This document shows, piece by piece, positions 28,979 to 63,300 of a DNA stretch of 64,000 nt. Position 1 is the first letter of the stretch, and each line of letters starts with the position of its first letter. The stretch covers positions 1-64,000 of the forward strand of contig JALLLS010000020.1 of assembly GCA_025094145.1 (NCBI GenBank), read 5' to 3'. Position numbers and translations under genes: made by a program. The notes beneath the pieces were generated by a model. The model ran no database searches. It was given only the letters and a program-made list of their open reading frames with translations, and was not told the DNA's origin. Source of the DNA: Spinellus fusiger. Lineage: Eukaryota; Mucoromycota; Mucoromycetes; Mucorales; Phycomycetaceae.

Positions 28979-30315
28979 GTTATTTAATTTGTTAAATCTT
29001 TTATATATTAAAGTAGAAGCCACTTCCCTGGAATTAAGAAAGTATGATAAACTTCATAAAGACTTATCATTGCATGACGATGATTTTCAAGTATGAATTC
29101 TGTAGTAAAAAAGCTGTATTTTGATAAATACATTGATTTGGCAAAAAAACAAGTATTTTTTTTTGGGTAAATACATGGAAACTGAAATATTTTATGGTCT
29201 AGAATATTTTCATTTTCAAGAGGTTGTTTTTGTGATCCAAATAACAGCACTCTTATGTTAAAAACTAAGATACATGCAATACATAGCTATTATTTCTTAC
29301 AAAAGTTTCAATATTAATAGGTATATGTGTGTTAATACACAGGAAATACATATCCTTAGCTAAACATAAATAATGATAGGTGGGCTTCTTCCTCCTCCTC
29401 TTCATAGGAATATGTTACATATACAGCATTATTTCTTTACCCATTTGCCCATGCATTAGAATTGACTCTGTAAACACTATTGGTGGATCCAGATAATTCT
29501 CTTTTACCAGTATCAATAGCCTTAGCATAATTAAACAAGACTCTATTTATTGGTCGTTATATAAGGACCAGGAGTGATAATATTCTGACAGTAGCTCCAT
29601 CAAATTGTTCTGTTCAAGAGATGACAGAAAAGTTGGGACTTTAACGGGTTGGAGCAGTATGATTGGCCACTAAACATATTACCTCAAAATCACATGATGA
29701 GCAAGTGACTGGGTAAAAACAATGAAAATAAAAGAAAATAAAAAACGCCATTTCTCTTACTCTTGTTATTACAACTTGTCTGGATCTTATTGGTAAGTGC
29801 TAATATATCATTTATAAAAGAAAGATTCCATTAACTAATGCTGGGATCTTTCAAAAGAAGAATAGAGAAACACCTGTCTTGGTGCTTAAACAAATACAAG
29901 GCTATAATGCTCTTAGAGTTTGTCCAATAATATGAATAGATTACTATTGCCTTAGACACTGGAGTACACTGATCTGCACATCTGAAAACATACTTAAGCT
30001 AAATAATTGCAAGACAACAATAATTCCAATGAGTGAAGTCTGTAAAATAAGAAATTTAATAATCAAGCACACACCAAGTCTATATATAAGAACCAAGGCA
30101 GTTAATGTAAATATTCACGATAGTGAGTATATAAAAGGTAGGTTGCTCTATGAGGATTCAAAATACTACATACAGTGTAAATATTGTATGAAAAATATCT
30201 ATTGACATTCAACTAATATGAATGCTTTTTTCCTTTTACCAAGTTAAGCCACTATTCGTCGAGTAATATTAGTGATGCATATCAATATGTTTGCGGCATA
30301 ACAAAAAAAGCTAGC
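28979..30315. other. AT-rich region without recognisable genes
   Basis: No domain-bearing frame was found. A minus-strand frame at 29008-29250 shows no family resemblance. It separates the Tc1 copy and partial repeat from the 93-bp minisatellite. Confidence 0.5.
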
Positions 30316-30317
30316 AG

Positions 30318-31015
30318 TACATACCAGAATTGCCATCAAGAAAAGATTGCTGCTAAGCAGCAGAGATTGCTACTAAACAAAAAGCCTGGCTGCAGTTTGG
30401 TGAGCATAAAGCCATACCAGGATTGCCGCCAAAAGAAGATTGCTGCTAAGCAGCAGAGATGGCCGTCAAACAAAAAACGTGGCTGCAGTCTGGCAATCAT
30501 GAAGCCATACCATGATTGCCGTCAAAGAAAGATCGCTACTAAGCAGCAGAGATTGCCGCCAAACAAAAAGCCTGGCTGCAGTCTGGCAATCATAAAGCCA
30601 TACCAGGGTTGCCGTCAAAAGAAGATTGCTGCTAAGCAGCAGAGATGGCCGTCAAACAAAGAACGTGGCTGCAGTCTGGCAATCATAAAGACATACCATG
30701 ATTGCCGCCAAAGAAAGATTGCTGCCAAGCAGCAGAGATTGCCGCCAAACAAAAAACGTGGCTGCAGTCTGGCAATCATAAAGCCATACCATGATTGCCG
30801 TCAAGAAAAGATTGCTGCCAAGCAGCAGAGATTGCCGCCAAACAAAAAGTAATACCAGGGTTGCCGTCAAAAGAAGATTGCTGCTAAGCAGCAGAAATTG
30901 CTGCTAAGCAAAAAGCCTGGCTGCAGTCTGGCAATCATAAAGCCATACCATGATTGCCGTCAAGAGAAGATTGCTGCCAAGCAGCAGAGATTGCTGTCAA
31001 ACAAAAAGAAATGTG
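30318..31015 (+). repeat. 93-bp minisatellite, about eight units
   Basis: Unit starts (gattgccg after ccatacca) recur at 30421, 30514, 30607, 30700 and 30793, exactly 93 bases apart. A shortened unit follows near 30857 and another at 30954; an incomplete unit precedes at about 30328. Each unit carries the near-palindrome GCTGC(T/C)AAGCAGC and a CTGCAG. Because 93 is a multiple of three, a forward frame (30367-30852) encodes 31-residue repeats with GCSLAIIKPYHDCRQ as core. No homology is recognised, and whether it is translated is unknown. Confidence 0.9.
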
Positions 31016-37875: not shown

Positions 37876-40251
37876 TTACTTGAAACGAAGGTACAAGTTA
37901 ACAATAAGTGCGCCTACTAAAAGACAGCATAAAGAGACAGGGCCCCACAGATCATCGTAACGACCCACCACTCGACGATTAATCATCCAAGCACGCTTCT
38001 CAAAGCGATAGAGGGCATAGATACAAACAGCAACAGCAATACTAATAAATACTCCACCCGCAATACGAGAGACGCTATCACCCCAGTTGAGTAGGTTAAG
38101 GCCCACTGTCAGAAGTAAGGCACCAAACTGAAGCCAACTGATAAAAGTACGTTCATTGGCAAAAAAGACTTTTGGCTCAATCTTGATCTTTTTTACAGTG
38201 AGTATAGCACCCTTCTTGTAGGGATTTTCAATCTTTGTAGGGTTACCCAGACCAATAAAACGCTTCCATGGGTGATGCCTTTTTTGTTTTTTCTTCTCTT
38301 CTTCCATGTCTTCAATACTCATATTAAGACGAAGACTATCTCCTTCAATATCCACAGCTTCTCCAATACTGTGCATTTCCATGGCCTGACCAGAAACATT
38401 TCTATTACGAGGACCAGAATTTGTAGGTTCTTCTGCAGTGACGATCAAACCAGAGTCACCACGTAAGCCTTGGTGAGACAAATTCCACATAGGGTCTTGT
38501 ACTTCTTGCTGAGTATTCCCCCTTGCCGAGAATAAAAAATCTGCCTTTTCAGAAGATCCAACCAATGTCTCCCCTGTAAGAGAGGGCCTCTGTTTCTCAG
38601 CAAATGGCTTTATTGGTTTATACAGAGCATCCTCAAAGGGACTGCTATGAGAGTGTGTTGAACCTTGTCTCTTTATGTCTGCGTTATTAGAGATATCGGC
38701 CACAATACTCATTCTACGTTCTTCTGTTTCCATAGCTCGGTGGTACTGACCATCGATTAAAGGCTTGAATGATTTTGAACGGGTCAATCCAAAATTCCTG
38801 GATCTTGGTTTTCGAACATCAATCTCCATTTCAGACAACCACCAGGGCAAGAGTGGCATTCTTTCACGGAAGAAGTAAGCAGCACCATGGAGATATTTGG
38901 AGAATCGAGGAACTTCGTGTACCAAATGAGAGTCCACAAGTTTAGTCAACCACTCTGGAGGTTTTTGTCCAAGATGTGTCTGCAGTTTTGTTTCTAGTAC
39001 AGCATAGGGGAATCGAAGGCATTCTGAAGGAGGAAGATGATGGAACGGATAGTCAATACCAACATCAGGACGACGCCAATCACCAGTGCCTCGTCGAATA
39101 TGCTCAAAATTATCTTCTCGAATAAACGTGAGATCTGTATCTAAACTGACACGCACACGCTGGTCTCCTGGTAATTGGAAAGCTGTACGATCATAATAAG
39201 CACGCAATACAGGCTGAAGTTTTTTCTCAAGTACAGAGGTTTGGACACCCTGGGCAATAAAATGGCTGTCCTCCACTACTTTGGGATCTGTTCCCTTGGC
39301 ATGCATTTTCTGGGCATAAGCGTCTGCTGTGTATTCACCTGTTAAGTAGTCAGGTACTTGGTTAGCTTCCAATCGAACACGATCTTTGACGGAAGCACCA
39401 TTTAGCCACGGTGCGTGGTGGGTTTTTCTCTCAATAAAGATGGACTGGCTGGACATGGGTCCATACCACCGGAATCGAATGGCTTCTGCACCCTCATCTC
39501 TCTGCAAACGACCAGAATAAAGATCAAAACTTGAGTTATCATAATAAACACTAGAAATAGCACTGTCTGAAGGCTCGTATCGTTTCTCCTTGTTGAATAT
39601 AAGCACAGGCAAATGAAGCATAATAATTGATTTGACTTCTGTGACATTATCAGGATGGATCCAGTATTTGGCTGTTGCTCTCTCAAATGCACTCTGATCA
39701 CCTCCTGCAGCTGAATTACCAGTACGTGGTTTTCCCTTGAGCCTACACATATCGTGAAGAGCAGAGATAAAGACAATCGCTACATCAAATCGTTGCTTAT
39801 CCAAAGGCATTTTCCTGAGTTGAGGCACAAATCCTTGTTGAAGATCCAAATGTGTCCATTTATCGTGTTTCTTTATGATTTTTTGGAAACCCATATAGTT
39901 GAATCGTGTAAACTTGGCAAGGTCGTTCACATCAAACAAGACCTCTGTTAGGGCATCGTCCATGATATTCCAGTTTTGTTCAGATGAAGAAGTTGGGTTA
40001 TTCATGAATGCCTGGATTGTGCGCTCACAGTAACTAATCCGCGCTTCTACTTCACTTAGTTTGGCAGTGACAAAATCGTAGACCTTCTCAAGTTCAATTT
40101 CCAGCAGTTCAATAAACTCTTTTTCGTCTGTTTCGTTCCATGCATGCTTTAGTTGCCTAGCTTTAAGTTCATTTTTTAATACGTTGTATTGGAGATAAGA
40201 CAGTTTCCAAGGTGGAAAAATCTCATTTTCGAGGAGACTGCCAAACTTCAT
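37876..40251 (-). CDS. Vacuolar transporter chaperone (VTC) polyphosphate polymerase subunit, VTC4-like
   Basis: Single exon, 791 residues from the ATG of MKFGSLLENEIFPPWKLSYL. An SPX domain occupies residues 1 to about 150 (NDLAKFTRFNYMGFQKIIKK contains the Lys cluster that binds inositol pyrophosphates). The VTC catalytic tunnel domain is at about 190-480 (KYWIHPDNVTEVK, EAIRFRWYG, IERKTHH, VRVSLDTDLTFIRED, FPYAVLETKLQT). The Arg pair in RFR, the Lys in ERK and the Glu/Lys in LETKLQ correspond to active-site positions of Vtc4, so it is probably active. Three C-terminal membrane helices (705-790) form the polyphosphate channel part. The complex makes polyphosphate from ATP and moves it into the vacuole. 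The family split between Vtc2/3 and Vtc4 cannot be settled by eye. A close paralogue lies at 43682-46607 on the same strand. Confidence 0.93.
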   Translation of the reverse strand: MKFGSLLENEIFPPWKLSYLQYNVLKNELKARQLKHAWNETDEKEFIELLEIELEKVYDFVTAKLSEVEARISYCERTIQAFMNNPTSSSEQNWNIMDDALTEVLFDVNDLAKFTRFNYMGFQKIIKKHDKWTHLDLQQGFVPQLRKMPLDKQRFDVAIVFISALHDMCRLKGKPRTGNSAAGGDQSAFERATAKYWIHPDNVTEVKSIIMLHLPVLIFNKEKRYEPSDSAISSVYYDNSSFDLYSGRLQRDEGAEAIRFRWYGPMSSQSIFIERKTHHAPWLNGASVKDRVRLEANQVPDYLTGEYTADAYAQKMHAKGTDPKVVEDSHFIAQGVQTSVLEKKLQPVLRAYYDRTAFQLPGDQRVRVSLDTDLTFIREDNFEHIRRGTGDWRRPDVGIDYPFHHLPPSECLRFPYAVLETKLQTHLGQKPPEWLTKLVDSHLVHEVPRFSKYLHGAAYFFRERMPLLPWWLSEMEIDVRKPRSRNFGLTRSKSFKPLIDGQYHRAMETEERRMSIVADISNNADIKRQGSTHSHSSPFEDALYKPIKPFAEKQRPSLTGETLVGSSEKADFLFSARGNTQQEVQDPMWNLSHQGLRGDSGLIVTAEEPTNSGPRNRNVSGQAMEMHSIGEAVDIEGDSLRLNMSIEDMEEEKKKQKRHHPWKRFIGLGNPTKIENPYKKGAILTVKKIKIEPKVFFANERTFISWLQFGALLLTVGLNLLNWGDSVSRIAGGVFISIAVAVCIYALYRFEKRAWMINRRVVGRYDDLWGPVSLCCLLVGALIVNLYLRFK

Positions 40252-40715
40252 AGTGGTAGAATAAATATACAAAAGAGAAAAGAAGTAAAAAATGGGAAAA
40301 GAAAAAATAAAGTTCTGAATCTTAAGGATTCTAATCGCAGAAAATTGAATGTATTTTTGGAATCACTATGGACAACCTATTTTTTATTTATTTATTTTTT
40401 TATTAATTCGTTTTTATACGACCAACAAATCCTTACAGCAGAAAAGACGATCATGGATTAGGCGGAGATGTCATTTGTTACCTTTTATGTCTGTAGTACA
40501 CGTCAAGCCATGGCAACCGGAGTGTTTTTATTTAATCATCGACATAATAAAAAGAGCAAAGCAAGAGGGAAGGATCTGTCCAATAAAATTGTTACTATAA
40601 AAAGAGTGGCTATCGTCAACTATAAATATAAACTCTATGCAATAGAATGGCTTATTGTATTTTAAGAATCCTTTTGGTGTAAAGTTTATAATTCTTTTGG
40701 TGTGAATGATATGAG

Positions 40716-43681: not shown

Positions 43682-46607
43682 TTAAGGGCTATTATCGTCA
43701 TTCGAACCATCAGAAGAACCATCGGGAGAGTCATTGTTGGTATCGTTATCTGTATCTGTGGAGGAATTGGGAGGATTGGTATTGGGTGTGGCGGCGGGTC
43801 TAGGAACGACATTGAGTGTGGCGGCGGGTGTGGCAATGGGTGCGACAGGTGCGACGGGTGCGACAGGTGCGACGGGTACAATGGGTGTGGCAATGGGTGT
43901 GGCAAAGACATTGGTGTTTGCATTCTCAGTGGGTGTGCCAAGAAGAGTGGCAATGCTAGTGGCAATCGTATTGGTACTAGTCATGTCAATGCTTTTACTG
44001 ATCTGATCTGCATTGTGAGTGCCATTGTGGTTCTTTGTAAGAAAGCTGGTGCTAGGGTCGTTGAGATGTGTATAGCGCAAGACAAAGTTAAGCTGTAGAA
44101 GTGTTAGTAGTGTATCAATGATGAGGTGAGCTTACTATTAAGGCACCCGACAAGAGAACCGTCAGTCCAAAGGGACCATAGATATCATCATAACGTAGAT
44201 GGGGTCTGGTTAATATCTGGAAGGCACGGAATCTGAAGCGACCAAATGCATAGAGAGAGAATAGTAGAGCAAGACCAAAGAAGACTCCACCAGAAATAAC
44301 GCTGATACTATCACCAAAGTTAATAAGGGTCAACGCAGCCGTCAGAAGAATGACTGAGAAATGAAGCCAATGGATAAAAGTACGTTCATTAGAAAAGAAC
44401 ACCTTTGGCTCTAATCGTGTAGCCAATTCCAAATCTCTCTTTGCCTTCTTCAGTTCTTCCTTGGACATCCCTGATAATCCCTCCAATCCCTCCACCACCT
44501 TTTCTTTCTTGTCCTTCTTCTTGTCCTTCTTCTTGTCCTTTTTGTCCTTTTTGTCTCCATCTCCATCTTTCTCCTTTTGCTCCTTCTTGTCCTTTTTCTC
44601 CTTCTTTTTCTTCTTCTTTTCTTCCTCTCTTCTTTCATCATCTGTGCTGGTGTAGAAGCCTGCTGTGAGGTGGGCTCTGCTGTCATTTGGCATGTTAATA
44701 ATCTGGCCATGCTTATTCTCATAAGGATCCATAAACCTGGCATCTGATTGACCAAAGGAGGTGTATCTATCAGGACTTGATGTCTGGCTGTCATAGTGAT
44801 CGTTCAGATAGCTTCTTTGAGGCAGATGATGACTTAATTCCAAGGGCTTTGATTCATTACTCCAGAAAGGATCCTCAAAAGGATTACTATTCTTGTTATC
44901 GACATCAATGACATAAGACTGAGGACTACTGCTGCGAGGGGCTAAATTCCCTGTTTCTACTTTGGGTGCAAGACCAGACGTTAGCTTTTCACGCGTCTTT
45001 ACTGCACGGAAAGAACCACCACGACCCAACAATGCTGGTTTGTTGTCTTTACGCTTTATACTTGCACCTTTCTCCAACTGCTTCTCAAGATAGCCTACAC
45101 GGTATTGTCCATCAATCAATGGTTTTAAACTCTTGGAGCGTGATAATCCAGAAAAGTTGCCTTTGGGCTGTTTAGCATTACGGATATCCATCGTGAGTTG
45201 ATCCAACCACCATGGGAGAAGGGGCAATTGTGAGTTCCAAAAGTGAGCAGCACCCTGCAAGTATTTTGAGAAGCGTGGTACTTCATAGACAAGTTTTGAG
45301 TCCAACAAACGAGTCAACCACTCTGGTGCTTTCTGACCAAGATGTGTTTGGAGTTTTGTCTCTAATACAGCATAGGGAAATCGATAGATCTCTGAATCAG
45401 GCAGAGAATCAAAAGGATAATTCACTCCAACGTCATGTCTTCGCCAGTTGTTATTGCGACGATGACCATCCTCACGAATGAATGTAAGATCTGTGTCAAG
45501 AGAGAGTCGAATGCGCTGGTCTCCTGGTACTTGGAAAGCCGTGCGGTTATAAAAGACACGTAGAACAGGATCCAACTTTCTTTCTGATAAAGATTTCTGA
45601 ATGCCTGCAGCAATAAATTGGCTCTGATCGATGGATTCTTTGGATGCTCCCTGTGTACGTCTTTCCTGTGCATACTGGTCTGCAGTGAACTTTAATGAGA
45701 CAAAATCATTGACTTGGTTAGCTTCCAATCGAAAGCGATCTTTGACGGAAGCACCATTTAGCCACGGTGCGTGGTGGGTTTTTCTCTCAATAAAGATGGA
45801 CTGGCTGGACATGGGTCCATACCACCGGAATCGAATGGCTTCTGCACCCTCATCTCTCTGCAAACGCTCAGCATAAAGATCATGGGTTGGGTTGTCATAA
45901 TAAACACTAGAAACAGCACTGTCTGATGCTTCAATGGGCTTATTGGCATCAAACACAAGCACAGGAAGATGGAATAGAAGGATAGCTTTGAGTTCTGTGA
46001 CATTATCAGGATGGACCCAGTATTTGGCTGTTGCTCTCTCAAATGCATTCTGATCACCTCCTGCAGCTGAATTACCAGTACGTTTCTGGCCCTTTTGTTG
46101 ACAAAGATCGTGAAGGGCAGATACCTTTACCAGGGCAACATCAAACCGCTGTCGGTCAAGTGCTTTCGAGCGTGAAATATCTACCAACAGTTGCTGTCGA
46201 TCTCGCTGTGTTAATGTTGTGTGGAGTTGTATTATGTTTTTAAAGGCTAGGAAATTATAGCGAGCAAATTTACTCAGGTCGTTAAGGTCCAGTAGTATTT
46301 CTGTGAGAGCGTCGTCCATGGAATCAAATAGGTTCTTTGCTGTAGAATCAGACAGGGAAGAGCGTTGTTGGACCAAGACTCGCTCACAATAGGCAATACG
46401 GGAGTCTATCTCGCGCTGTTTTCGAGTGATAAATAAATCGATTTTATCTGCTTCCAGTCTAAGAGTGGACTCAAAATCAGATTCGTCTTGGTCAGTCCAT
46501 TTCTCAGAAGTACGAGTCTCCAGGTGCTGTTGAATAGACTCATAGGCTACATATTCAAATCTCCAAGGATCATAAATAGCCTGCTTGAACTCTTTAATAA
46601 AATCCAT
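43682..46607 (-). CDS. Second VTC polyphosphate polymerase subunit, with extended C-terminus
   Basis: Two exons (46607-44136 and 44092-43682) sum to 960 residues. An N-terminal SPX domain (MDFIKEFKQAIYDPWRFEYV ... NDLSKFARYNFLAFKNII) precedes the catalytic domain (KYWVHPDNVTELK, EAIRFRWYG, IERKTHH, RIRLSLDTDLTFIRED, FPYAVLETKLQT), which keeps the Arg/Lys/Glu positions of the polymerase. A Lys/Glu-rich linker (nt 44480-44640) leads to the three-helix membrane domain (LEPKVFFSNERTFIHWLHF, ISGGVFFGLALLFSLYAFG). The final helix is completed by exon 2 (LNFVLRYTHLNDPS). Exon 2 also adds about 120 residues of low-complexity tail with Val-Ala-Pro repeats (nt 43838-43890) and an Asp/Asn/Ser end. If the intron were retained the protein would end SSPHH. 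It is the paralogue of 37876-40251, and nucleotide identity between the two is extreme in two blocks. Confidence 0.9.
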
Positions 46608-47397
46608 TGGTTCTTTTGTGTATATATATATATTTATATATAATTATATATGTATAGGATTTATAGGATGTATTAGAAAAGAAGGAAGACGGAAATAGAA
46701 AGAGAAGATAAAGAGAAGATAAAGAGGAAGAGGAAGGAAAACAAGGAGTGCCAAGTTTAAAGGCTAAAGAATCTATTTAAGCCGGAACATTAAAAGAAAG
46801 GGCCAATGCCAATATAGGACTGCCTGGAATAACAGAGACAGAACGTTGGACAAGGAAAAGGCTCTTGTTGAATATATAGACTCCGCTGAAACACAATAGT
46901 GAGTATCTTGTTTATTTATAACTATACACAAATGGCTTTATAAATTAAAAATAAAAACGAAAAAATAACAGATAGACTGCTAATGTTGTTTACAAAGAAG
47001 TACCTTAATTCTCAGTCCATTTAAACAGAGAGAGATTATTATTATTATTATTATTATGTTGAATTCAAAATAAAATATCAACACTTTGATAGACTGCTTA
47101 TATCAACTGCAATTTATCTTTATATATCTTTATATCTTTATATTTATATAAACTCTAATAAGCATTGGTTTGAGTTGTAAGCACAAAGTACTATCAATGA
47201 TAGCCCATTACGAAGGATCAAGTGGCTGCTAGTTGTATCTTAAAATAGTAGTAAAGATTCAACAGCTATTTAGGAACAAAATACATTTTACACCCCGAAG
47301 GCACTATACACTGCCATTCTTTTTATTTTTATTTTATTTTTGCACACACTCTACACATAATTTACTCTCTACAGAACAGTGATTTTGGCTAAAGATC
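46608..47397. other. Upstream region of the second VTC gene
   Basis: About 790 bases. A TATATATATATATTTATATA block lies just before the start codon (46619-46652), purine-rich GAAGA repeats at 46680-46745, and an (ATT)n run at 47036-47056. No gene was seen. Confidence 0.5.
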
Positions 47398-49135: not shown

Positions 49136-50105
49136 TTACATACGCTGGAATACTAAATAAACAGCGTGGACAATAGCTAGATGTTCATCCACTACATCTA
49201 TTTCTTCTTCCAGTCCTTCTATACCACCTTCTTTAAGTTGGCGATCTTTTGAATGGCCTTCAGGAACAGTTACTACCATTTCTTTAAGCTTCAATACACT
49301 CCTATCTACAGCTCGCTCGATATCCTCAAGAACTAGCATGGACATGGGCCACAGTTTGCCATTGTCCTTTTGTCGGATATCCTTTGTTCCAACAATAAGC
49401 ATCCCTAGCGGTGCAAGTTTCTTGGTGGCTTCTAGTGCAATTTGTACAATGGTCTCTCGGTAGAGCCCGATCTGTGAAGGAGTTATTACTTGGTGGCCCA
49501 CCATCATCAAGACAAGAGGCGCATTTTCAAGTGGTTTCTTGTTCATCATGTTCTCATAGTGAACAATATCATCTGAATCCTCACTCATTTCTGAGATAAG
49601 ACCCTATAAATATGTTAAGTTAAATTGGATTCTATGCATCTCTGCCTACCAATTTCAAAAGAGTCTGGTTATTCTCTTCAATTCTCTTTAGTCGAAGCTT
49701 CTCATAATCTGATAGATCGTTGGAGTCTTTGGCTGATACTTCTAAATAAGACATGGGTCTATCATTCTTATTTGGCATACACTACTACTATTATTTACCT
49801 ATCTCCATAGAGTCCTCTGATACTTCTTGCTGCTCTGGTACAGCATCAGGCTCTTCTGGTTGAGAATAATGTAGATCCTTTATGAGAACAAGAGTTAGTA
49901 TGAATCTATCTATCTCTTTACTTACATCAAAGGACATAAACTCAAGCTGTACTTGCTCCCAATTACCGTCATCTTTTCCAAATCGCTCCAACATACGAGA
50001 CATGCACAGCTGTTCAAAACTACGGGCTGCTGTTGGTTTGAAAATCCATACTGTTCCCATTACAACACTCTTTCGAGAAATAGCAGATTGAGGAACCTCC
50101 TTTAT
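49136..50105 (-). other. C-terminal second methyltransferase-like half
   Basis: After the core come VVMGTVWIFKPTAARSFEQL, a helical charged linker, and then YENMMNKKPLENAPLVLMMV, IGLYRETIVQIALEATKKLA, PLGMLIVGTKDIRQKDNGKL, WPMSMLVLEDIE, LKLKEMVVTVPEGHSKDRQ and DEHLAIVHAVYLVFQRM. The order GxLIVGTxDIR ... (K)LWP ... LKEMVVxVPEG ... EHLxIVxxVYLVF repeats the beta-5/6/7 end of an amino-methyltransferase (compare LGIGDNR ... FVATFRK in the core), but no S-adenosylmethionine motif I or catalytic PPY is visible. It may be a non-catalytic partner fold for target recognition or internal pseudo-dimerisation (inference). Confidence 0.5.
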
Positions 50106-53100
50106 GATATGTTTGATTCTGACATGATCCTTGCACTGTGTTGCTATTATGAAAAGGTAGAATTGTTATGAGCTCTCATCATTACTTTTCTGGCCAACGT
50201 ACTGTCATAGGTCAACATAGTATCGGATGTCTCCAAGGGCACTTTACGGAAAGTAGCCACAAATTCATGTGTAAATACCAAAAAGTCAAATTGCACACAT
50301 AGATAAGTGCCAAGCCCAAATGCAGAGCAGTAGCGTTGTCGTTTGATGATCTTTGAAGAAAGTGAACAAGGTTTTCCCTATATTTACATTAAACTTACAA
50401 GTTCCTCTAATTCAAATCCACGGTTAATATACTCTCTTAAGAGATGGAAACCAACTGGGATATAGAAACAATGTTCACGATTGTCTCCAATACCCAATGT
50501 AAGTCGACGTCCCATCTTGAGCAGTCTATAAAGAAGCATTGAATTGAGTAGCTATTCCATGAGTAGTCCCTCCCTTTCTTTTTCTTTTTAGCAAATACCT
50601 CCAACTCTCTTGGACTACACGTCCATATTCTGAACGAAACTCATCTACACCTGTGAATCTAGAGATAAATAGACACATATTCATTCATTCATATGTTGCT
50701 ACAGGTGGATTGAAATGATCTTTCTTTTCTCCTTGTTATTACCTTGAAAGATCGCCATCCAAGTGAGTTGAATAGGCTACACAGTCTTTGTAGGGAGGAT
50801 GGGAGAGAATATGGTGGAAAGATTCATCAGTGAATAATGCACCCGATAATTGACGAGAGTCTGCTTGAGCAATAATAGGACGGTACTCAGCAGAAGTCAA
50901 ACCAGGAGGCACTTCAAAACAACAGTTTCTTTGAGATAAAGCCACAGCTGCCTATAATTACAAGTGTTCAATCCTCACTATTAGCATCGCGCTATAAACA
51001 CCTATGAATAATAGAAAGTCAATTTACCGGGTTAATATCCACACCACAACATCTAACAAGACAAATAAATTAGACACTTTATCATTGTGAATAGTATTTT
51101 CTATCATTTACCTTCTTTGCAGGAGAAAACATTCAATAGCATCCGTTCCTAGTAAGAAGAATGAAAGACATATTAGTCTTATTAAAACCATAAGTCATGT
51201 TTACCTCGACCAAGGAAATTAGAAAGCACTCGTTCATCTTTGTTTGTATATTTAAGGATGGCCCTAAGTACACCGTTTGTTGAATCTATGTATCTGATAT
51301 TTCTATACAAAAGATGTATTGTTTACCTTCTTACTGTCTGAGGAAGCCAGGTCCCTGTCAATTAATTCAGTACACAATGGTCCTTAATAGATATCTATCT
51401 ATCTATTATCTTACCATGATAATCTGTTCCGGAATGGGTAGCCCATCGAGGCGCTCTTCCGGGAATGTCATAGTAAGTAGAATCAAATACCAAAGAAAAC
51501 AGTTGATGTGGTTGTGGTCCATAAGTAGCAAGCCGCTGTCCCTTCTTATTATCAGTGAATTTGGTAGCCGACAATGCATCCCTTGTAAGGTAAGGCTTAT
51601 GTGTGTAATCCTCAATAGACAAAACATAGCGATTTGTTTCCTCGGAGTCCAACACAAGAGATTCGTTAGCCACAGCATTGCCATCGTTATCAATGAACAA
51701 AGCCAGATCAAAACAAGGTTTGCACATTAGTACACCGCCATCATAGCCTTTTCTCCAACTCTCAGCCTCTTCTGTGCCACAGTAAGAGCATGAAAGGGGA
51801 AGAGAGCCGTCAGCTAATCGGCGTTTTCTCTTGGGGAAGAGAGCCTTCTTTTTAGCATCTGAAAAATGTTATTACAAGTCTTACGGATTAATAACTTACT
51901 TATAGCTCTTGTTTCTTCCTTTGCTTTTGCAGCCTCACATGCCTTTTGTGTTTCAATTTCAGTAAGCATAGCACAGGCTGGTAGTAATAGCACAGAATGA
52001 GTACAGTACTTGTTATCAACACCACTTACATGTCTCTTTAAATTGATCTCGGTCGTGTGCATGATCCTCGGGGAAATTATTAAAGCACTAGTAAAAAGTA
52101 CACGTTAACATTAAGAAAACATCTTTTTATGAACAGAGAATCCATCGTCATTGAATATGTATGTTCTTACCTCTGCACATAAATCAAAGGAAGAGAAATA
52201 GCTTGAAGCACAGCATGCACAGCTGTACCAACTTGTATCTTCTAACCGTTTACTACAACCATCACAGCTGAAGATATTTACATAGGCGTCTATTTAATTG
52301 CATTAGAAATAGTCTCTATAATAACAATAAAACAAATCATTTACCTTTCTTCTTATAATGAGCTTCATGAGTAGCACACCAAAAGATAGCACCGCTCTGA
52401 AAGTAGCTCATTGGCTTTTGTGAACAAGGCAGATGAAAACTCTTTGAACATTTTGAATCAAAACATCCAACTGTAGCTCCCTTTTCTTTACAGCTATAGC
52501 ATCTCTATAATACATTCAAGAAGGGGGTTAAAAAGAAATACATAGAACCTCTTACAAACAGAATAAAAGGTAACTTACCATGCCACGACCACGTCGAAGA
52601 GCAATGGTGACATTGTACCATTTTCCTTCAGGTGTACATACAACCTCTGGTGAGTAACGAGCACAAGCATCATGAGCCCAGAAAGACCGTTTCTTCTCTA
52701 CACTATTCTTATTCATGGTACTGATAACAAATGGACCAATAAATCTTCCCAGCTCTTCTGAAGTGTCATCATCATCATTACAAAAGGCACACACTTTTCG
52801 TCTATGCCACCGTTTAAGGAATTTATAGCCTTGGTCATCTTCAAGAGAAGGAACACCAGAAAAGACATCACTAGCAGGTATATCACCTTGAGCTACATCA
52901 TCAAAGTCTTCAGCTTCCTCTTGGTCCATTTCTTCTACAGTCTCGATGATGTCTTCTTCCCATATTCTGACAAGTTCTCCTTTAATTAGCATTAATCCCA
53001 TGTCAGCATCCACCACTGCTTGGACTGCGAAGCTAGATCGAGGATGTTCATGCCAAACAGGAAAATTCTGATCAAAACATCTAAAATTCACATGAAAATA

Positions 53101-56100
53101 GAATTCAGAATCAATAGGGACGATTTCTATTTTATACTTTGCAGTTCTTACCCAAGACACAATTCAAAGCTCTGGTAATCATGGCCTTCTGAGGGTGTCT
53201 CGCAGTAAGTACAATAGTAACGGAATTGCTTGATTACAACATTGCATTGATTACAATAGACTCTCCAAGTATCCATCTCTACATAGCATAGATACATACG
53301 CCAATAAGTCTCTTTTCTCTCTTTATCTTTTATAGTGCATTGTCGGCTTACCCTGTACCTCGGACCCATCAGCTACTTCTTCATGGTACTCTACTAGTTC
53401 AGTTTCTTCCTGCACAGGTACAGGCACCTCTATTGCTTTGGGTTGCTTCTGTTGTGGTATGGATCGTGGTGTTTCTTTGGCTTCTGTCTTTGGTTCCTCA
53501 ATGGTCTCCAGTGCTCCTTTGGTAATGCGTTCAGGATAATCTGGCTCACTGCATTCCACTTCATGATCATTCTCAATGACTTGGAGTCTTTTACTGCCCA
53601 ATGACACATGTTCATCAAACTTGTCTAACCAGCCGCAGTAGTGAATACGGACCCGGTTACGTTCCATAGCCACAAGTCTTCCTTCATACCACTTCTTATC
53701 CAAGTGAAGTACTTGGACATGGTGCATATAGTTATATCCATACACATTAGCAACAAATCCATGGCTATCTCCATCTGAGGGTGTGGTGTGGCGGGAAGAG
53801 CAGGCGGAAGTAGCAGGCGTCTCTTTTACTTTGAATGGCGGTGTCTTTGACTGAAGGGCTCTGCGTTTCTGCTGACCAGCTTCCTTTGTCTTTTTTCTCT
53901 TTAGGGGTGCCTTCTCACCCTTGTCTTGTTCTTCTACGGCTTCCAGTAGTTGGCTTGGCTCCAATAATGGACTTGGCTCCAATAATGGACTTGGCTCCAA
54001 TAATGGACTTGGCTCCAATGATGGACTTGGCTCCAATGATGGACTTGGTTCTGGTAGTGGACTTGGTTCCAATGATGGACTTGGTTCCAATGACTGACTT
54101 GTCTTCACAGCTTCATGGCTGGCTTGTTGTGGTGTCTTCACCTTTTTTGCTACTGATCTATGCTTTGCTACAGCTGGTTTTTTACTACGACTTTTCGTCT
54201 CAGTAGCTTCTAAAAATCCAAGTCTTTTATAATCATCGGGCCCAAGCACAGGGTGGTGTCGTTTCCGACGCGCTTCCTCAACTACTTCTGGATTGGCTTC
54301 TGTCATTAACAGCTCATGTCGCATAGAGCGTCCCGAAGGCTTTTGTACTGTGTTTTGTCCCTTTTCAGAGGCCTCTGTATTTTCAGAAGCACCAGCACTC
54401 ATATCTATTTCTACTGTGGTTCGGATACGTCGACTCCCGAGAATAACCCATTCATCGTAGGTTTCTCCCCAGCCATCGTAACGAACACACACCTTTCCTT
54501 GGGACATTTCAACCAAATGGCCTCGTTCCCAGAACTTGTTTTTACTTGCACGGGTGTTAAGAACTTCTACAGGTTGGTTGTATGCATAGCCATAGGGATT
54601 GGGTACAAATCCATGTTCATCCTTGAGCTGGAGCATGGCACGACGTGTAGCAAAAGCACCGGTAGTAAGAAAATCAAGCGATGTGTCTTCAGAACCCTCT
54701 TGTTTGGTAGTCACTGGAGTGGGTTTGGCTGTCTTGGTAGGTTTGGTAATCTTCCCTGCTTTTTTGGTGTCTGCTTTTAGAGATTTGGGCTGTTTGTCTC
54801 CGGGATTCTTTTTACTACCATTGCTACTAGTTGTATTTGGACTTGTACCATTACTTGTTGCTGGTTTTTTTGTAGTAGTAGTAGTAGTACTCTTATTATG
54901 ACCATGGCTGTTACTAGTATCGTTGAGGCCAAGAAGATCAATTCCCGAGGTTATCTTTAATTCTGATACTTCTTGGTCTGACAATACACGAAGCCTGCGA
55001 CTTCCAATGACTAGCCAGTCAGATTTCTTTAGACTTGGATACCAGACGCACAGTTGATGATCACGCATTTCTCGTAATAATCCAATGCATTCTGTCTTTT
55101 TTAGTTTTCCCTTTTCAGGATTCATCATAACAGCCACAGCACGACCATAACGATAGCCAAATGAATTGGGTTTGAAGCCATGTTCGTCTGTGAGCTGATG
55201 TGCCATTCGTCGTGTCATGAATATCTCGTTATCATTGAATATCTGATTAGGATCTGTATCAAGAGGAAGAGTGTAATGTTTTCTAGGTTTTTGTACAGTC
55301 AAATCATGTAATTTAGGCGAGTTATTGGCTTTTTCAATTGTGGATCCAGTAGATGATTCAATTGATTCTGCCATTGTTATGGAAGGTGGTGAGGAAGTAT
55401 AAGTGCCTAATAGTTTAACAACTATTAAGAGAGAGAGTATGACTTATGATTAACAATTGAACTTACTGCCACTCTTGTTTTCTAGTAATTGCTCTTTTTC
55501 TTCTTCTTTATTTTCCAAAGTACGAATACGACAGCTATCCATAAGAACCCACTCCTCTTTATCTTGATCGAGATAATTAACTTTGACTGTTTTTCCACAC
55601 ATTTCTATAAGTACTCCGAGACACCAAGACCCATACATATCTAATACTTTTACTCGTTGACCATTAGTAAATCCGCATGGGTTAGGATAGAACCCAGAAA
55701 TGTCAGCCAGTTGTTTGGCTGTGTTTCGAGTAAGAAAAGCGCCTGTTGTGTAATATTGTTTTGAATCTTGGGGCTTTCTATTCTCTTGAGATCTATCATT
55801 CTCTCGGAGCTTTTCATTCTCTCGGGACATTTCATTCTCTCGGGATTTTTCATTCTCTTGTGATTTTTCATTCTCTTGGAAGGGTAACAATGCTGCTGAT
55901 TTTGTCTTTTTAGGGATTCCTTTTGGCTTGAGGATCTGTTTTGGCTTGTTGGCCAGTGGATTCATAGTGTCCGAGTATTTGTTGAGTGTCTTCAAGAGAT
56001 GTTTGGCATCAGGTAGCCATCTTTCTTTACATGGACTACACAACGCCACTGCTTCCATAGGTCCTCTTTCTTCCTTGTGACACTGCTTGCACTCTTCTTT

Positions 56101-56143
56101 AGTCTTTTCTATCTTAGTCTGTTGTTGTTGTTGTTGTTGTTGT

Positions 56144-56178
<35 letters not shown>

Positions 56179-56577
56179 TTGGGTTTTATGGTTTTCTGTG
56201 TTCTCTAGACTGAGCGGTACAAGTGATAAAGTATCTCGGTCGAATGGCTGACCTACATCCCAACGAGTTCTTCTTCCACCTTTGTTTTGGTAGCGTTTAT
56301 CAGCAACATCAACAACATCTGTCGTAGTAGCAACATTGTCATGTTCATGAGATAATGGCATATTGGTTAAGGCCATGTTATTTTCTGTTGTTTTCCTGAA
56401 CAAAACTTCGTCTTCTGATAAATCTTCTTCGGATAAATCCTCGATCGACATGTCGTCAGAAAAGAGTTCAGTGGGTGTTTCTATGGAAATATGTTCTATT
56501 TCCATGGGGATGTTTAAATTAGTTTCCATGGGGATGGTCCAATTAGCTTCCATGGAGAAGTTCTCAAAAGCTTCCAT
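49136..56577 (-). CDS. Multidomain chromatin-reader / DNA methyltransferase fusion protein
   Basis: About 21 exons, approximately 2,070 residues. The first exons are 56577-55467, 55406-53352, 53278-53152 and 53080-52579; the other exons are smaller. Reading frame is kept across every junction I checked. Order: acidic N-terminus with a poly-Gln run; a CxxC-x-CxxC finger; four Tudor/chromo-barrel-like repeats; ZZ finger 1; extended PHD module; ZZ finger 2; a basic segment and GATA-like finger; a methyltransferase core with FLGRG...VDINP and HPPY motifs; and a second methyltransferase-like half ending VHAVYLVFQRM. This predicts a nuclear protein that reads histone marks and methylates DNA. The core resembles bacterial N4-cytosine/N6-adenine enzymes, which suggests ancient transfer and fusion (inference). 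Annotation could split it at 53.3 or 55.4 kb, but the GT-AG introns there join frames exactly. Two inverted Fanzor-bearing transposons flank it. Sub-regions are listed separately. Confidence 0.75.
50180..51420 (-). other. Bacterial-type DNA methyltransferase core
   Basis: Small exons, in order: HGTWLPQTVRR; ILKYTNKDERVLSNFLGRG; TDAIECFLLQRR; CCGVDINPAAVALSQRN; HHILSHPPYKDCVAYSTHLD; GDLSRFTGVDEFRSEYGRVV; RRLTLGIGDNREHCFYIPVG; ELEELIIKRQRYC; FDFLVFTHEFVATFRKV. FLGRGTDAIE...GVDIN is the S-adenosylmethionine site (motif I and II). HPPY is catalytic motif IV and follows motif I by about 80 residues. GIGDNR with YIPV, and the closing HE(F)xxxFRK, match the tail of prokaryotic N4/N6 amino-methyltransferases of the type with an (S/T)HPPY motif. 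The Gly-rich loop has RG where bacterial enzymes usually have SG. The modified base (N4-cytosine or N6-adenine) cannot be told from sequence. Confidence 0.72.
51400..53278 (-). other. Zinc-finger segment: ZZ, extended PHD, ZZ, GATA-like
   Basis: ZZ finger 1 (53278-53030): CNQC ... CTYC ... ELCLGCF ... WHEHPRSSF. Acidic linker, then an extended PHD (about 52810-52345): KVCAFCNDDDDTSEELG, SFWAHDACARYSPEV, ALRRGRGMRCYSCKEKGATV, CSKSFHLPCSQ, FWCATHEA; this is the C2HC pre-finger plus PHD order seen in chromatin proteins. ZZ finger 2 (about 52292-52030): FSCDGCSKRLEDTSWYSCACC, split here as FSCDGC and YSCACC, then FDLCAECF and HAHDRDQF. Next a basic KRKRR patch and a GATA-like finger (about 51825-51715): SCSYCGTEEAESWRKG ... 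LMCKPCF. These fingers probably recognise histone tails or DNA and place the enzyme on chromatin. Confidence 0.75.
53352..56577 (-). other. N-terminal reader segment: four Tudor/chromo-barrel-like repeats
   Basis: Exons 1 and 2 of the fusion gene. The repeat pattern is: FxTRR/LTRN..A.QL..(E)HGF.PN.(Y/F)GY, a V-x-V strand, a short loop, EM....V.V.Y, then W....WV..(G)SRRIR. It occurs at nt 55755-55510 (YYTTGAFLTRN; EEWVLMDSCRIRTL), 55230-54985 (FMTRRMAHQLTDEHGF; SDWLVIGSRRLRVL), 54660-54425 (FATRRAMLQLKDEHGF; YDGWGETYDEWVILGSRRIR) and 53775-53575 (HGFVANVYGYNYM; YCGWLDKFDEHVSLGSKRL). YxGW..xxDEWV is the signature of Tudor-knot/chromo-barrel domains that bind methylated histones. Linkers contain poly-Gln (nt 56115-56180), Gln-Glu-Asn-Glu-Lys-Ser repeats, and a Leu-Glu-Pro-Ser-Pro repeat (nt 53945-54095). 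The start is the ATG at 56577, because the frame upstream lacks an ATG. Confidence 0.7.
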
Positions 56578-58110: not shown

Positions 58111-58981
58111 CAGTCCCATGCAATAAGTGAGTAGACGGCAAATCAATTTTTTATTTTTGAATAATAATAAATAAAATAGAACTCATTTCTTTTCTTTTAT
58201 AACTTATTCAAAAAACGACTTCAAACAATGGAAATCAGCCAACTCTTAGCCATGAACATAAAGATAGTCTCATCAAAAAAAGAGAGCATGACATTTCTAT
58301 TAGAAGTCAAATCATAGGACAATGGAAAAGACATGTTACTTATCAAGAGATTTCTGACGATCTTGACATCCCAAAGAGCACAGTGGGCAATATCGTCCTA
58401 TTGTATAAAAGCAAAGGCATAATTCAACTCGAAATACATACAGGAAGACCTGAAAAAGTGTCATCTACTTCAAAACTAGCTGTCATTTTGTCTATTCGCA
58501 GAAACCCTATACAAACAATTGCATATCATTTGAAAAATATGAATGATGCAGGCGTAGATATTTGTCATAGGACATTTCTAAAATACATTAATAAACTCAG
58601 TATCACTTCATACTCACTATTAATAAAATCTCGTATGACACTTACTCACAAGCAAAGACGATTAGAATGGTGTAAAAACAAGGCTAATTGGCTAGTGGAG
58701 AGGTGGAATAACGTTGTTTGGTCTGATAAATATTGTTTTACAGTTGTAGGCAATGATAAAGGAACTAGAGTGATTAAAAATAAAGACTCTGTTACAAAGT
58801 ACTGATTAATCTCTTTATGGTGATGTAGACAATCAGTTAAAGAACAACTATTCCAAATTATGTATTATTCCATGAACCTTTTATTATGAACATCTTTGAC
58901 TGATATTTATACCTTTATTATTCAAAATAAAACAAAAACAAAAAGTTGATCTTCTGTCCACTTACTTATTGCCTGGAACTG
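58111..58981 (+). mobile_element. Internally deleted Tc1-like element inserted in the Fanzor-bearing copy
   Basis: The left end CAGTCCCATGCAATAAGTGA (58111) and the complement of the right end, CAGTTCCAGGCAATAAGTAA (58981), are imperfect inverted repeats of about 38 bases. The left flank is TA; the right flank has drifted to TG. The body is 871 bp, too short for a full Tc1. It splits the Fanzor relic between its RGVG-like and CLKIM-like parts. Confidence 0.75.
58228..58805 (+). pseudogene. Truncated Tc1-like transposase
   Basis: The frame HDISIRSQIIGQWKRHVTYQ, EISDDLDIPKSTVGNIVLLY carries the first helix-turn-helix, then GRPEKVSS, a second HTH (TFLKYINKLSITSYS) and WNNVVWSDKYCF with the first catalytic Asp. 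It stops at 58803-58805 soon after NKDSVTKY. The second Asp and Glu of the catalytic triad are missing, together with the C-terminal half. There is no in-frame ATG before the HTH. Confidence 0.75.
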
Positions 58982-60318: not shown

Positions 60319-63300
60319 ATGGAAGGCTGGCAACCCACCGAGAGAGGCCTATCCGATCTTATACAGCTTTTTCATTTGGCTATTAATCCTACAGACGGCC
60401 AGAATGTGGAAAAGGTAACTTCGAGGAAATCCACAGTGCAATAACTCCATTTTTACCACCCAACATAGAGACTCGCGTATTATAGCACTCTTCCCGATTA
60501 CAATTCATATCTTGTCTATATTCTGGTAGAAATGCCACACGAAGACCAATATGTTCGCTCTGTTGCTGGGTTAACCCTCAAGAACAACATTCGACAGCAT
60601 TTTGTTGATATTCCTATGCCTGTCATGAACTATATAAAACAGGCATGTCTACAGCATATGGGAGACATAACAGTTGGCAAGTCAGTCAGTCTAGTCATAG
60701 CTGCTATTATGGCCTGTGGACACGTTCAGCAGTGGCCACACGCCCTTACTGTGATTCTAGAGAAGCTCGATGATCCCGAGCCTGCAGTCGTGGAGGTACG
60801 TTGACAGATGGACAATGGAGAACCCGGCTGATGTAAGATTCGAATCAGAATGCAATGAATACACTCCATAAGCTGTGTGAAGATTGTGCTGAGGAATTGG
60901 ATAGACCTCTGGGAGACGTAGTGCCTTTGGAATACATTCTCCCCAAACTCATTGCTTTCTTCCAACATCCAAATTGTAAAATACGTTACCAGGCCATTAC
61001 TGCTGTAAATCATTTTATTGCCTTAAGATCCAAATCATTGGTACAGAGAATGCCTGAATTCCTAAATGCCCTGTTCTTGAGGGCTACTGATGATGATGTT
61101 ACAGTCAGAAAGGCACTGTGTCGATCTCTCGTGGCATTGTTGGATGGTTACCACGATGCTCTTTTACCTCAAATGGCCACACTTGTAGATTACATGTTAT
61201 ATTCAACCCAGTCGGATGATCCAGACTTGGCATTGGAAGCATGTGAATTCTGGCTGGTGTTTTCTGAACAGGGAGAGTTGCGTGGTCATCTCCGGCCGTT
61301 TTTAGTAAAGATTGTTCCTGTCTTGTTAGGAGGGATGGTGTATTCAACAATGGACTTACTTATGCTGGAGGGAGAAAGCGATGATGCGCATGTTGTGGAC
61401 CGAGATCAGGACATTAAACCACGCTTCTATAAATCCCAACTCACTGGTGCTGATAGAGCACATAATGGACAGGAGATACAGAGTCAAGGGAATTATGATA
61501 CAATAGACAGTCTAGAAGAAAGGGATGACTATGATGACTATGATGATTATGAGGACGATGAGGACGATGAGGGCTATGACGACGAGGCTACTAGTGAATG
61601 GAGCCTCCGTAAATGCAGTGCAGCTACACTAGATACTCTCTGTCATTCTTTCAAAGAAGAAGTTGTAGCTATTCTCATTCCAATGTTAAAGATAGAATTG
61701 GAGAGCCCTGACTGGCTTCACAGAGAATGTGGTATTCTTGCTCTTGGTGCTGTTGCTGAAGGTAGAAGGAAATAAGAAATGAACACTTGCTTACTGTCTG
61801 TAGGAGGTATTAATGAAATAGCATCACATCTCAATGAATTGATTCCTTACCTATTGACTCATATGAATGACTCCAAGGTAAATACCATTATGTATGCACA
61901 AGTGATTCATAAGTGTACAGCCCCTTGTGCGCTCCATCACCTGTTGGACACTTGGAAGGTACTGTCCGTGGATTCTTCAAATAAGCCGACAAAACTACGA
62001 GGCACGTCAACGCTATTTTGAACCCCTCATTCAGCTACTGCTTGAACGTATTCTCGATAATAACAAGCGAGTACAAGATGCTGCCTGTTCTTCTTTTCTA
62101 CGCCTTGAAGATGAGGCATTAGAAGACTTAGTACCTTATTTAGGTCCTATTCTTAGTGCACTTGCTACTGCCTTTGACAAATACCAAAAACGCAATCTCC
62201 TACTTCTTTATGATACCATCAGTACATTGGCAACGTCTGTTGGTCATGCATTAAATACACCTCAGTTTATCAATATCATCATGCCTCCTCTGATTCAGAA
62301 ATGGCAAGAGATTCCAGACACAAGCAGAGATCTGTTCCCATTACTAGAAGTAAGTCATATAACTATATTCAATGTAATTTATCTCTACTCTACAGTGCAT
62401 TTCCTCAGTAACTTCAGCTCTTGGCAAAGGATTCTTACCCTTTGCTGAACCTGTCTATATGCGTGCTGTCGTTCTTGTATTAACGACACTCAGGGAATGC
62501 CAATTGGCTGCTCATCATCCATCTCGAGAAACACCAGAGAAGGACTCCATGGTGGTTGCTCTTGATTTGCTATCCAACATTGTTCAGGCACTCAACACAG
62601 AGGCTGAACCATTGGTAGCCAAGACACAGCCACCAGTAGCACACTTCTTGTCGGTGTGCCTTGTGGTAAATTCTTTGTAACTGTCTATCTATAAACCATG
62701 TCTAATACAATAGGAAATCACTAGGATGAAGTGGCTGAGGTACGGCAAGCTGCCTATGCTTTACTTGGTGATCTTGCTATTTCTTGTTTTGAACACATTC
62801 GAGCCATGTTGCCACAATGCATGCATAGTATTCTTCAACAGATTGAACCACAAACAAATCCGCTATCTGTATGCAATAATGCTGCTTGGGCTGCTGGTGA
62901 AATTGCATTGAAATGGGGCAAGTAAAAGACTCCAGCTTCATGAAAAGATAGTAGTGGTAGTGGTAGTAGTTCTCTAGCATTCTCTTTTTATGATGTATAT
63001 ACTAACGCCAGGATACAAAAGGTCCTGAAATACAGCCTTACATCGAACCTCTTTTACAGCGCCTTTTATTGGTCCTGTCGAATCCTACTCGACAACGCAC
63101 ACTGACTGAAAATGCAGCTATTGCTATTGGGAGATTAGGCCTTATTTTCCCTCATGTGGTAGCTGTTCATTTAGAGAGCTTTGCTCATGCCTGGTTAATA
63201 GTACTAGCACCCATTCGAGAAAATGATGAAAAATCCTCGGCTTTTAGTGGTCTTTGCGAAACGATTAAATCAAATCCACAGGGCATTATCAAGGTAAGTG

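Follow-up and report, generated by a model that had tools for sequence, protein, structure and literature searches.

A gene of early-diverging fungi couples putative chromatin readers to a prokaryotic-type tandem methyltransferase

Introduction

What might a protein methylate that bears chromatin-reader domains ahead of a methyltransferase of prokaryotic type, and where does such an enzyme come from? This question is raised by a gene on the minus strand of the Spinellus fusiger contig JALLLS010000020.1 (assembly GCA_025094145.1), which was analyzed within the first 64,000 nucleotides of this contig—referred to as the window in the following. The product of this gene is probably a chromatin-guided DNA amino-methyltransferase that derives from a captured prokaryotic Type II tandem enzyme. 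The prokaryotic origin of the enzyme part is well supported by sequence comparison, and so is the reader–enzyme architecture; DNA is the likely substrate, and guidance by the readers is plausible. The gene may represent an overlooked means of chemical DNA marking in early-branching fungi.

Gene model and architecture

A first-pass annotation of the window had proposed a single gene whose frame is kept across GT-AG introns, and the model described here bears this out at the same coordinates. The coding sequence runs from an ATG at 56577 to a stop at 49136 and comprises 6213 nt (2070 codons plus the stop) in 21 exons, with the terminal stop as the sole one in frame. All 20 introns are 41–84 nt long and show GT-AG borders. 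Upstream of the ATG, an in-frame stop lies at 56640 with no further ATG in between. The model was built manually on the basis of reading frames and splice signals, with one acceptor set from homologues; a 24-nt version of intron 10 was rejected, as it would add 13 residues that the homologues lack. Read-through would introduce a stop in 18 of the 20 introns, introns 8 and 18 being the exceptions. As intron 18 is 48 nt long, in frame, and stop-free—its retention would be harmless—its junction is the least certain of the model.

The encoded protein begins with a low-complexity N-terminus including a glutamine tract, followed by four Tudor/MBT-like repeats, a ZZ-like finger, an extended PHD (ePHD), a second ZZ-like finger, and a GATA-like C4 finger. 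Behind the latter come the methyltransferase core, a short VMGTVWIF segment, a linker, and a final domain of 128 residues (Table 1). A chance architecture is excluded, since 153 homologues were found at E <= 1e-3, the best of which—from Apophysomyces—shows 71% identity across the full 1044-residue query. On the sequence level, the single reader–methyltransferase gene is thereby confirmed.

The methyltransferase core

The first-pass annotation had also described the core as an amino-methyltransferase of prokaryotic type with FLGRG, VDINP, and HPPY motifs, distinct from the MT-A70 enzymes. Each of these points stands. The Pfam domain N6_N4_Mtase (PF01555) is matched above its curated cut-off (1.2e-8; 35.6 versus 26.7 bits), with core positions 24–86 aligning with the far end (157–220) of the profile, and all 12 fungal cores that were scanned hit the same family at E <= 0.01. 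All 12 likewise match the PADLOC model PDLC03376 for Type II methyltransferases (best 2e-44), which covers the Spinellus protein from model position 20 to 249 of 249 (E 7.4e-37), and the non-fungal relatives are prokaryotic. The motifs FLGRGT, DINP, and SHPPY are all intact. Nine of the ten positions of motif I are invariant among the 12 cores—the exception is the L—and 116 of the 120 listed homologues follow the pattern F[LSAM]G[RK]GT. Between the Spinellus protein and 11 other fungi ranging from a chytrid to Mucorales, the cores are 66–89% identical, and the catalytic residues are invariant.

Several other class assignments were rejected. An MT-A70 identity is at odds with the domain scan—the whole protein shows no PF05063 match at E <= 1—and with the motif, which reads SHPPY and not DPPW. 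The N6_Mtase domain of MetB-type enzymes (PF02384) was not found in the protein at E <= 1 either. The permuted beta class does not fit, as motif I comes ahead of motif IV; this order is that of the gamma class.

Prokaryotic relatives and origin

With the alignment of fungal cores as the query, we obtained—besides fungal matches and fragments—proteins of prokaryotic size with about 34–41% identity over most of the core. Named matches include a DNA methyltransferase of a Thermoplasmata archaeon (P0142) and a DNA modification methylase (P0146). Scanning bacterial and archaeal genomes revealed at least 572 relatives. The 80 genome loci nearest the query and five loci on viral contigs were sampled, giving 85 genes, all of which bear HPPY (AHPPY in 50, THPPY in 30, SHPPY in 5). 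Long forms of at least 450 residues account for 50 of them, and the remaining 35 are short forms. The viral loci are the first five of 42 that matched the prokaryotic alignment, mostly over short stretches; with the fungal core as the query, viral contigs yielded no match in a close search. Among plasmid records, 56 match a long form partially, none of them reaching 80% coverage. PDLC03376 matches the archaeal enzyme at 1.7e-100.

Among the sampled relatives, whose genome loci are those nearest the query, the fungal profile scores the long forms highest (L014 at the top with 271 bits; the 25 best rows are all long). A profile of 40 relatives with at least 500 residues aligns with the fungal C-terminal part at an hhalign Prob of 100 and E 6.1e-73 over 442 columns. 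Hereby, the fungal part matches a prokaryotic protein of about 540 residues from end to end. In a phylogeny of 112 rows, 21 fungal-side rows (16 fungi and five eukaryotic-looking sequences) are split from 91 prokaryotic or phage-contig rows by a branch with a support of 100 in the Shimodaira–Hasegawa-like approximate likelihood-ratio test (SH-aLRT)—in a tree that was computed by a quick method with a midpoint root, contains several gappy or long rows (the metagenomic P0147 is gappy), and carries a long-branch warning.

The neighborhoods of the relatives were surveyed at the 85 loci with three genes on either side, and clusters were named from scanned representatives. A Dam-type D12 or DpnII cluster lies near 25 of the 35 short forms and 12 of the 50 long forms, that is, near 37 of 85; the representatives matched a Dam-type D12 methylase at 1.5e-55 (L086) and the DpnII endonuclease at 2.6e-15 (L031). 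The DpnII cluster has ten long-form members. Eight of the nine scanned ones match Pfam DpnII (L014, L016, L031, L035, L044, L047, L053, and L057), the ninth—a 124-residue piece, L037—does not, and L040 was outside the scan. A MutH-like cluster, of which one member was scanned, is found near three short-form loci. Around the fungal gene, no restriction endonuclease was seen in ten scanned of the 21 unspliced window frames of at least 170 residues.

A further family of about 450 residues, L032fam, usually lies directly behind the long-form methyltransferase; it occurs at 13 loci, 11 of them long-form, in archaea and bacteria (e.g., L011 6430–7782, L056 7401–8750, and L009 from about 1717), and is a candidate for an undescribed restriction enzyme. 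The scanned members of L032fam, L049fam, and L048fam gave no Pfam or PADLOC match; for L049, a weak phage_ECs1072 match was noted (0.0074).

A degenerate second methyltransferase copy

Two features had been overlooked in the first-pass annotation: the spread of the gene across early-diverging fungi and a second, degenerate methyltransferase copy at the C-terminus. In the prokaryotic long form, the core recurs in degenerate shape within the C-terminal part (E 1.6e-15, 162 aligned columns), with a score of 105 compared with 20 for the best of 60 shuffles. The PP[YFW] pattern is missing from this part in 49 of 50 long forms; L025 carries one. In the fungal protein, the degenerate copy lacks motif I and SHPPY. 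The prokaryotic methyltransferase profile scores 43.4 against the fungal C-terminal half, whereas 100 column shuffles do not exceed 23.1. Six further stretches of the fungal protein stay at or below 22.8, and the top scorers among them include the start of the second copy. When the fungal C-terminal half is aligned directly with the core of the fungal protein, the similarity is weak (E 0.04 and 0.12); the kinship becomes visible by way of the prokaryotic profile (5.6e-6) and of the internal repeat in the prokaryotic form.

Predicted structures agree with this assignment. In the model of the fungal homologue P0091, the C-terminal part (mostly above 85 in the predicted local distance difference test, pLDDT, with a mixed core) would have the strand and helix order of the second half of the core; the same order is predicted for the C-terminal part of the archaeal L009 (mean pLDDT 84.7, predicted template modeling score 0.88). 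The enzyme hence reads as a tandem of an active-type and a degenerate methyltransferase, already so in archaea and bacteria. A bacterial derivation of the core alone was rejected, as the degenerate copy has a prokaryotic counterpart too. Within the gamma-class scheme, this copy occupies the position of the target-recognition domain.

Chromatin-reader modules

Of the reader modules, the ePHD passes its Pfam cut-off and an MBT match does so narrowly (24.2 versus 22 bits), whereas the ZZ-like and GATA-like fingers stay below threshold, though with conserved ligands. By eye, the Cys/His ligands of both ZZ-like fingers and the C4 ligands of the GATA-like finger are conserved in all 16 aligned sequences. 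The GATA score is 17.5 bits in the whole protein and 25.9 bits when the segment is scanned alone, against a cut-off of 26.8 bits. The third Tudor/MBT-like repeat matches PHF20L1 at 2e-4 on a single stretch; its match to L3MBTL3 (4.8e-8) arises only as a sum over the L3MBTL3 repeats, with no single stretch below 0.1. Reader-type domains are thus present in the same chain as the enzyme—namely the ePHD and an MBT-like repeat with its PHF20L1 match. Ahead of the fourth repeat, the linker carries eight or nine LEPSP-type hexamers (about 53936–54100, minus strand).

Distribution in early-diverging fungi

Homologues were searched with query residues 1040–2083, which span the first ZZ-like finger and everything behind it; 120 of the 153 matching proteins were listed. 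By hand count, 102 of these 120 cover 85% or more of this query, and 18 cover less. The named ones are all early-diverging fungi from about 106 organisms, also counted by hand: Mucorales and Mortierella kin, Umbelopsis, Glomus kin, Basidiobolus, Coemansia and Dimargaris kin, and the chytrid Spizellomyces. Phyla were looked up for Apophysomyces, Quaeritorhiza, and Basidiobolus. A second search of shorter and chytrid proteins gave 40 matches, 18 of them new and the named ones fungal again, with good coverage in Fimicolochytrium, Powellomyces, two Geranomyces, and Gorgonomyces, and partial coverage in Phlyctochytrium (60%), Rhizophlyctis (23%), and Quaeritorhiza (6%). Both searches relied on shared five-residue words, and the second scored only the 7990 best candidates. 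The Mucor lusitanicus homologue (P0034) covers 65% of the query region.

SHPPY is found in 118 of the 120 listed homologues; of the 18 proteins added by the second search, several of them incomplete, 10 carry it. By strict patterns, 97 of the 120 combine SHPPY, motif I, and the ePHD signature GAT[IV]GCF in a single protein. Among the named matches listed, none comes from Dikarya or other eukaryotes, within the limited reach of these searches. In the Spinellus genome, this locus is the only match of a protein search; a PF01555 family search of the genome gave no match, probably because introns cut the core. By these matches, the gene is not peculiar to Spinellus and is widespread in early-diverging fungi. 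A compact eukaryotic-looking relative from a metagenome (P0147, 439 residues) bears a ZZ-like finger, the ePHD, and the methyltransferase core with little in between.

Proposed mechanism and substrate

The C-terminal approximately 550 residues would descend from a prokaryotic methyltransferase of the Type II restriction–modification kind in which an active copy was already followed by a degenerate one. An early fungus might have acquired this tandem enzyme and placed a eukaryotic reader array ahead of it—four Tudor/MBT-like repeats, the ZZ–ePHD–ZZ block, and the GATA-like finger. Judging from their domain families, the readers would dock the protein on modified nucleosomes. S-adenosylmethionine (AdoMet) would bind at the FLGRGT and DINP motifs, and a flipped base would enter the SHPPY pocket, where its amino group would be methylated. 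The degenerate copy might serve as a recognition part or as a pseudo-dimer partner.

DNA is expected as the substrate above all because of the PDLC03376 matches and the restriction–modification neighbors of the relatives. By sequence, the solved structures nearest the prokaryotic profile belong to DNA amino-methyltransferases, namely 2zie, a putative modification methylase (2.7e-17), MboIIA (8.5e-12), CcrM, and DpnA; the DNA cytosine-N4 methyltransferase 8s9n is matched at 1.1e-7. This places the profile near enzymes for N6-methyladenine (6mA) and for N4-methylcytosine (4mC) alike, and neither HPPY nor the fold ranking discriminates between the two. As some relatives adjoin DpnII-type (GATC) enzymes, N6 of adenine is slightly likelier than N4 of cytosine. 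DpnII-type enzymes cut GATC, so that adenine or cytosine in GATC-like sites would be the first guess for the ancestral target.

Some observations weigh against a DNA substrate and would suit a captured enzyme that now methylates RNA—tRNA, rRNA, or nascent RNA—with the readers recruiting it to transcribed regions. The core shares its fold and motif order with Trm11/THUMP tRNA methyltransferases, and Trm11, TrmN, and Trm14 are among the first in its fold ranking. Against the PDB, the fungal profile finds only two passing matches, 2zie (7.3e-7) and, second, the Trm11 structure 5e71 (1.5e-4), and one relative from an Armatimonadota bacterium (P0162) is labeled as a TRM11 family methyltransferase by its source. 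The first-pass annotation had held that a best alignment with RNA or protein methyltransferases would speak against a DNA enzyme; the fold ranking leans this way, but by sequence, DNA enzymes score better. A fold alignment that keeps the chain order would favor Trm11, since beta-class DNA enzymes are circularly permuted; the fold lists contain no beta-class DNA enzyme, which is still compatible with kinship. Moreover, no THUMP domain was found in the Pfam scan at E <= 1, and the family models and the relatives' neighbors point to DNA restriction–modification. We therefore consider an RNA substrate unlikely.

The methyltransferase might also be kept for structure or cofactor sensing in a scaffold or reader protein whose activity is weak or lost, given that the clearly degenerate C-terminal copy shows a lineage tolerant of pseudo-enzymes. 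However, nearly all listed homologues retain motif I, DINP, and SHPPY in the first copy, in contrast to the degenerate one, and this reading is unlikely. Histones or other chromatin proteins as the methylation substrate are improbable: the readers do point to chromatin, and the HPPY motif is similar to NPPY in glutamine methyltransferases, but PrmC/HemK-type models give weak hits on the prokaryotic relatives that fall far under the cut-offs of these models, and relatives lie near restriction enzymes. An artefact in which two adjacent genes, or fungal and contaminating bacterial sequence, had been joined computationally was rejected on the homologue evidence and is barely conceivable, for although the model was predicted from DNA alone and some homologue models are broken or mis-fused (e.g., P0073 with VTC domains), the core itself is interrupted by introns, the locus sits on a 469-kb contig, 102 of the 120 listed homologue models span at least 85% of the ZZ-to-end part, and the fungal and eukaryotic-looking rows form one side of the supported tree branch.

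Relation to known systems

Among openly licensed papers, no description of a fungal reader–methyltransferase gene was found and, among the titles listed, none about an HPPY enzyme. The closest likeness is N4CMT of bdelloid rotifers, where a captured bacterial amino-methyltransferase of PF01555 type is joined to a methyl-lysine reader, a chromodomain, in a eukaryote (PMC8885841). N4CMT is of the permuted beta subtype with SPPY and a single C-terminal chromodomain (PMC8885841). In contrast, the fungal gene has motif I ahead of motif IV, SHPPY, a degenerate copy, and many N-terminal readers, and belongs to early-diverging fungi; by analogy, it would follow the same "histone-read-DNA-write" logic. 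Plant chromomethylases also unite a chromatin reader and a DNA writer in one protein, yet as C5-cytosine methyltransferases of another catalytic family (in part PMC8885841). The prokaryotic AHPPY/THPPY Type II enzymes (PDLC03376; L009, L031) show the same motif order and are co-linear over about 440 columns including the degenerate copy, but are intron-free and bear an N-terminal C2H2-like finger (by eye), a helical part (in the L009 model), or both in place of readers.

In early-diverging fungi, 6mA is attributed to MTA1c and MetB (PMC11258239, PMC13297926). MetB of Mucor is a prokaryote-derived DNA methyltransferase too, but of the PF02384 N6_Mtase family and MmeI-like, and the accessible part of its description mentions no reader array (PMC11258239). 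MTA1c of the MT-A70 family (PF05063) provides an amino-methyltransferase writer in the same fungi with an active and an inactive partner; these partners are separate proteins with a DPPW motif from a eukaryote-wide family. Knock-outs in Mucor cover metA (PF05175), metB (PF02384), metC (PF05063), mta1, p1, and the demethylase dmt1; the accessible text ascribes PF01555 to none of these genes (PMC11258239). As far as they were available, a 2026 review lists fungal 5-methylcytosine writers, MT-A70, and MetB (PMC13297926), a eukaryote-wide 6mA survey gives as reader link a PHD in the ichthyosporean p1 subunit (PMC12695648), and a cytosine methyltransferase survey looked for PF01555 in three other eukaryotes without matches (PMC12344493). 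Elsewhere, the Spinellus genome holds two PF05063 matches, a PF02384 match, and C5 methyltransferase matches, so that the gene would add to the known writers.

The gene might, more tentatively, mark a separate and unrecognized pathway of amino-DNA methylation: a tandem captured as a whole out of a restriction–modification context before most fungal phyla split, turned by the array of readers into a chromatin-addressed 4mC/6mA writer, and lost in Dikarya. We consider this possible, though somewhat less than an even bet. The built-in pseudo copy would then take, within the same polypeptide, the role that METTL14 or Mta9 play as separate partner proteins. A further candidate writer from another enzyme family with histone readers attached would change the view of how DNA and histone marks are linked, and would make the captured bacterial writer wider and probably older than the rotifer N4CMT. 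That so conserved a reader–writer gene is absent from the published writer lists, in the parts surveyed, should surprise fungal epigeneticists. Also, the prokaryotic methyltransferase type with its built-in degenerate copy has no characterized member that was met in the literature searched. Being a single gene open to deletion and expression, the proposed function is directly testable.

Table 1 Features of the Spinellus fusiger reader–methyltransferase gene, with positions in the window.
Feature	Residues	Position	Strand	Basis
Whole coding region	2070 aa	49136..56577	minus	21 exons; spliced frame open throughout; homologues
Glutamine-rich tract near N-terminus	133-156	56110..56181	minus	Translation
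Tudor/MBT-like repeat 1	295-354	55516..55695	minus	Agenet 0.0046, Tudor_4 0.0064, both below cut-off
Tudor/MBT-like repeat 2	447-512	54982..55179	minus	Internal repeat by eye, GFxPNxxGY...GSRRLR; no usable Pfam match
Tudor/MBT-like repeat 3	636-701	54415..54612	minus	Pfam MBT, PHF20L1, and L3MBTL3 matches
Tudor/MBT-like repeat 4	920-981	53575..53760	minus	Chromo_MORC2_6th 0.004, below cut-off
ZZ-like finger 1 (two exons)	1060-1116	53026..53267	minus	ZZ_ADA2 0.036 only; conserved ligands
Extended PHD, zf-HC5HC2H (two exons)	1194-1311	52367..52794	minus	PF13771 9.7e-9, passes curated cut-off
ZZ-like finger 2 (two exons)	1324-1374	52040..52275	minus	ZZ_ADA2 5.1e-4, below cut-off; conserved ligands
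GATA-like C4 finger	1427-1455	51704..51790	minus	PF00320 7.5e-6, 25.9 versus cut-off 26.8 bits
Methyltransferase core (nine exons, 9-17)	1523-1769	50243..51502	minus	PF01555; PDLC03376 in 12/12 fungal cores
Intron 10 (acceptor 51264)		51264..51326	minus	63 nt; homologues lack 13 residues of shorter-intron version
Motif I SNFLGRGTDA, predicted AdoMet binding	1575-1584	51138..51223	minus	Split by intron 11
Motif II VDINP		51028..51042	minus	DINP invariant in 12/12 cores
Motif IV ILSHPPYK, predicted catalytic	1649-1656	50787..50810	minus	SHPPY in 118/120 listed homologues
Second-copy start VMGTVWIF...	1802-1854	49938..50096	minus	Aligned with prokaryotic TTVWI restart
Degenerate second copy, C-terminal half	1943-2070	49139..49522	minus	Prokaryotic profile match; strand/helix order

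Surroundings of the gene

Two adjacent VTC/DUF202 proteins of the vacuolar polyphosphate type neighbor the gene on the minus strand (37876–40362, with an additional SPX match, and 44115–46643). VTC and DUF202 are found together with PF01555 in the Parasitella homologue P0073, which is probably a mis-fused model reflecting the same gene neighborhood. Pieces of Tc1/mariner-like transposases lie at 14124–14873 (minus), 27937–28470 (minus), and 58203–58805 (plus), with matches to DDE_3 and, below cut-off, to HTH_Tnp_Tc3_2. On the plus strand, an open frame at 30217–30852 runs over a tandem array (30320–30848; 93-bp unit, 5.7 copies, 87% match) and encodes basic repeats of about 31 residues. The plus strand also bears a Kelch-BTB protein with a long low-complexity tail (1660–4122) and a HEAT-repeat protein (60837–62448), importin-like by eye, whose first frame was scanned and which apparently extends into a second one. 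A protein with a DEK C-terminal domain (10814–11557, minus) is possibly a further chromatin protein.

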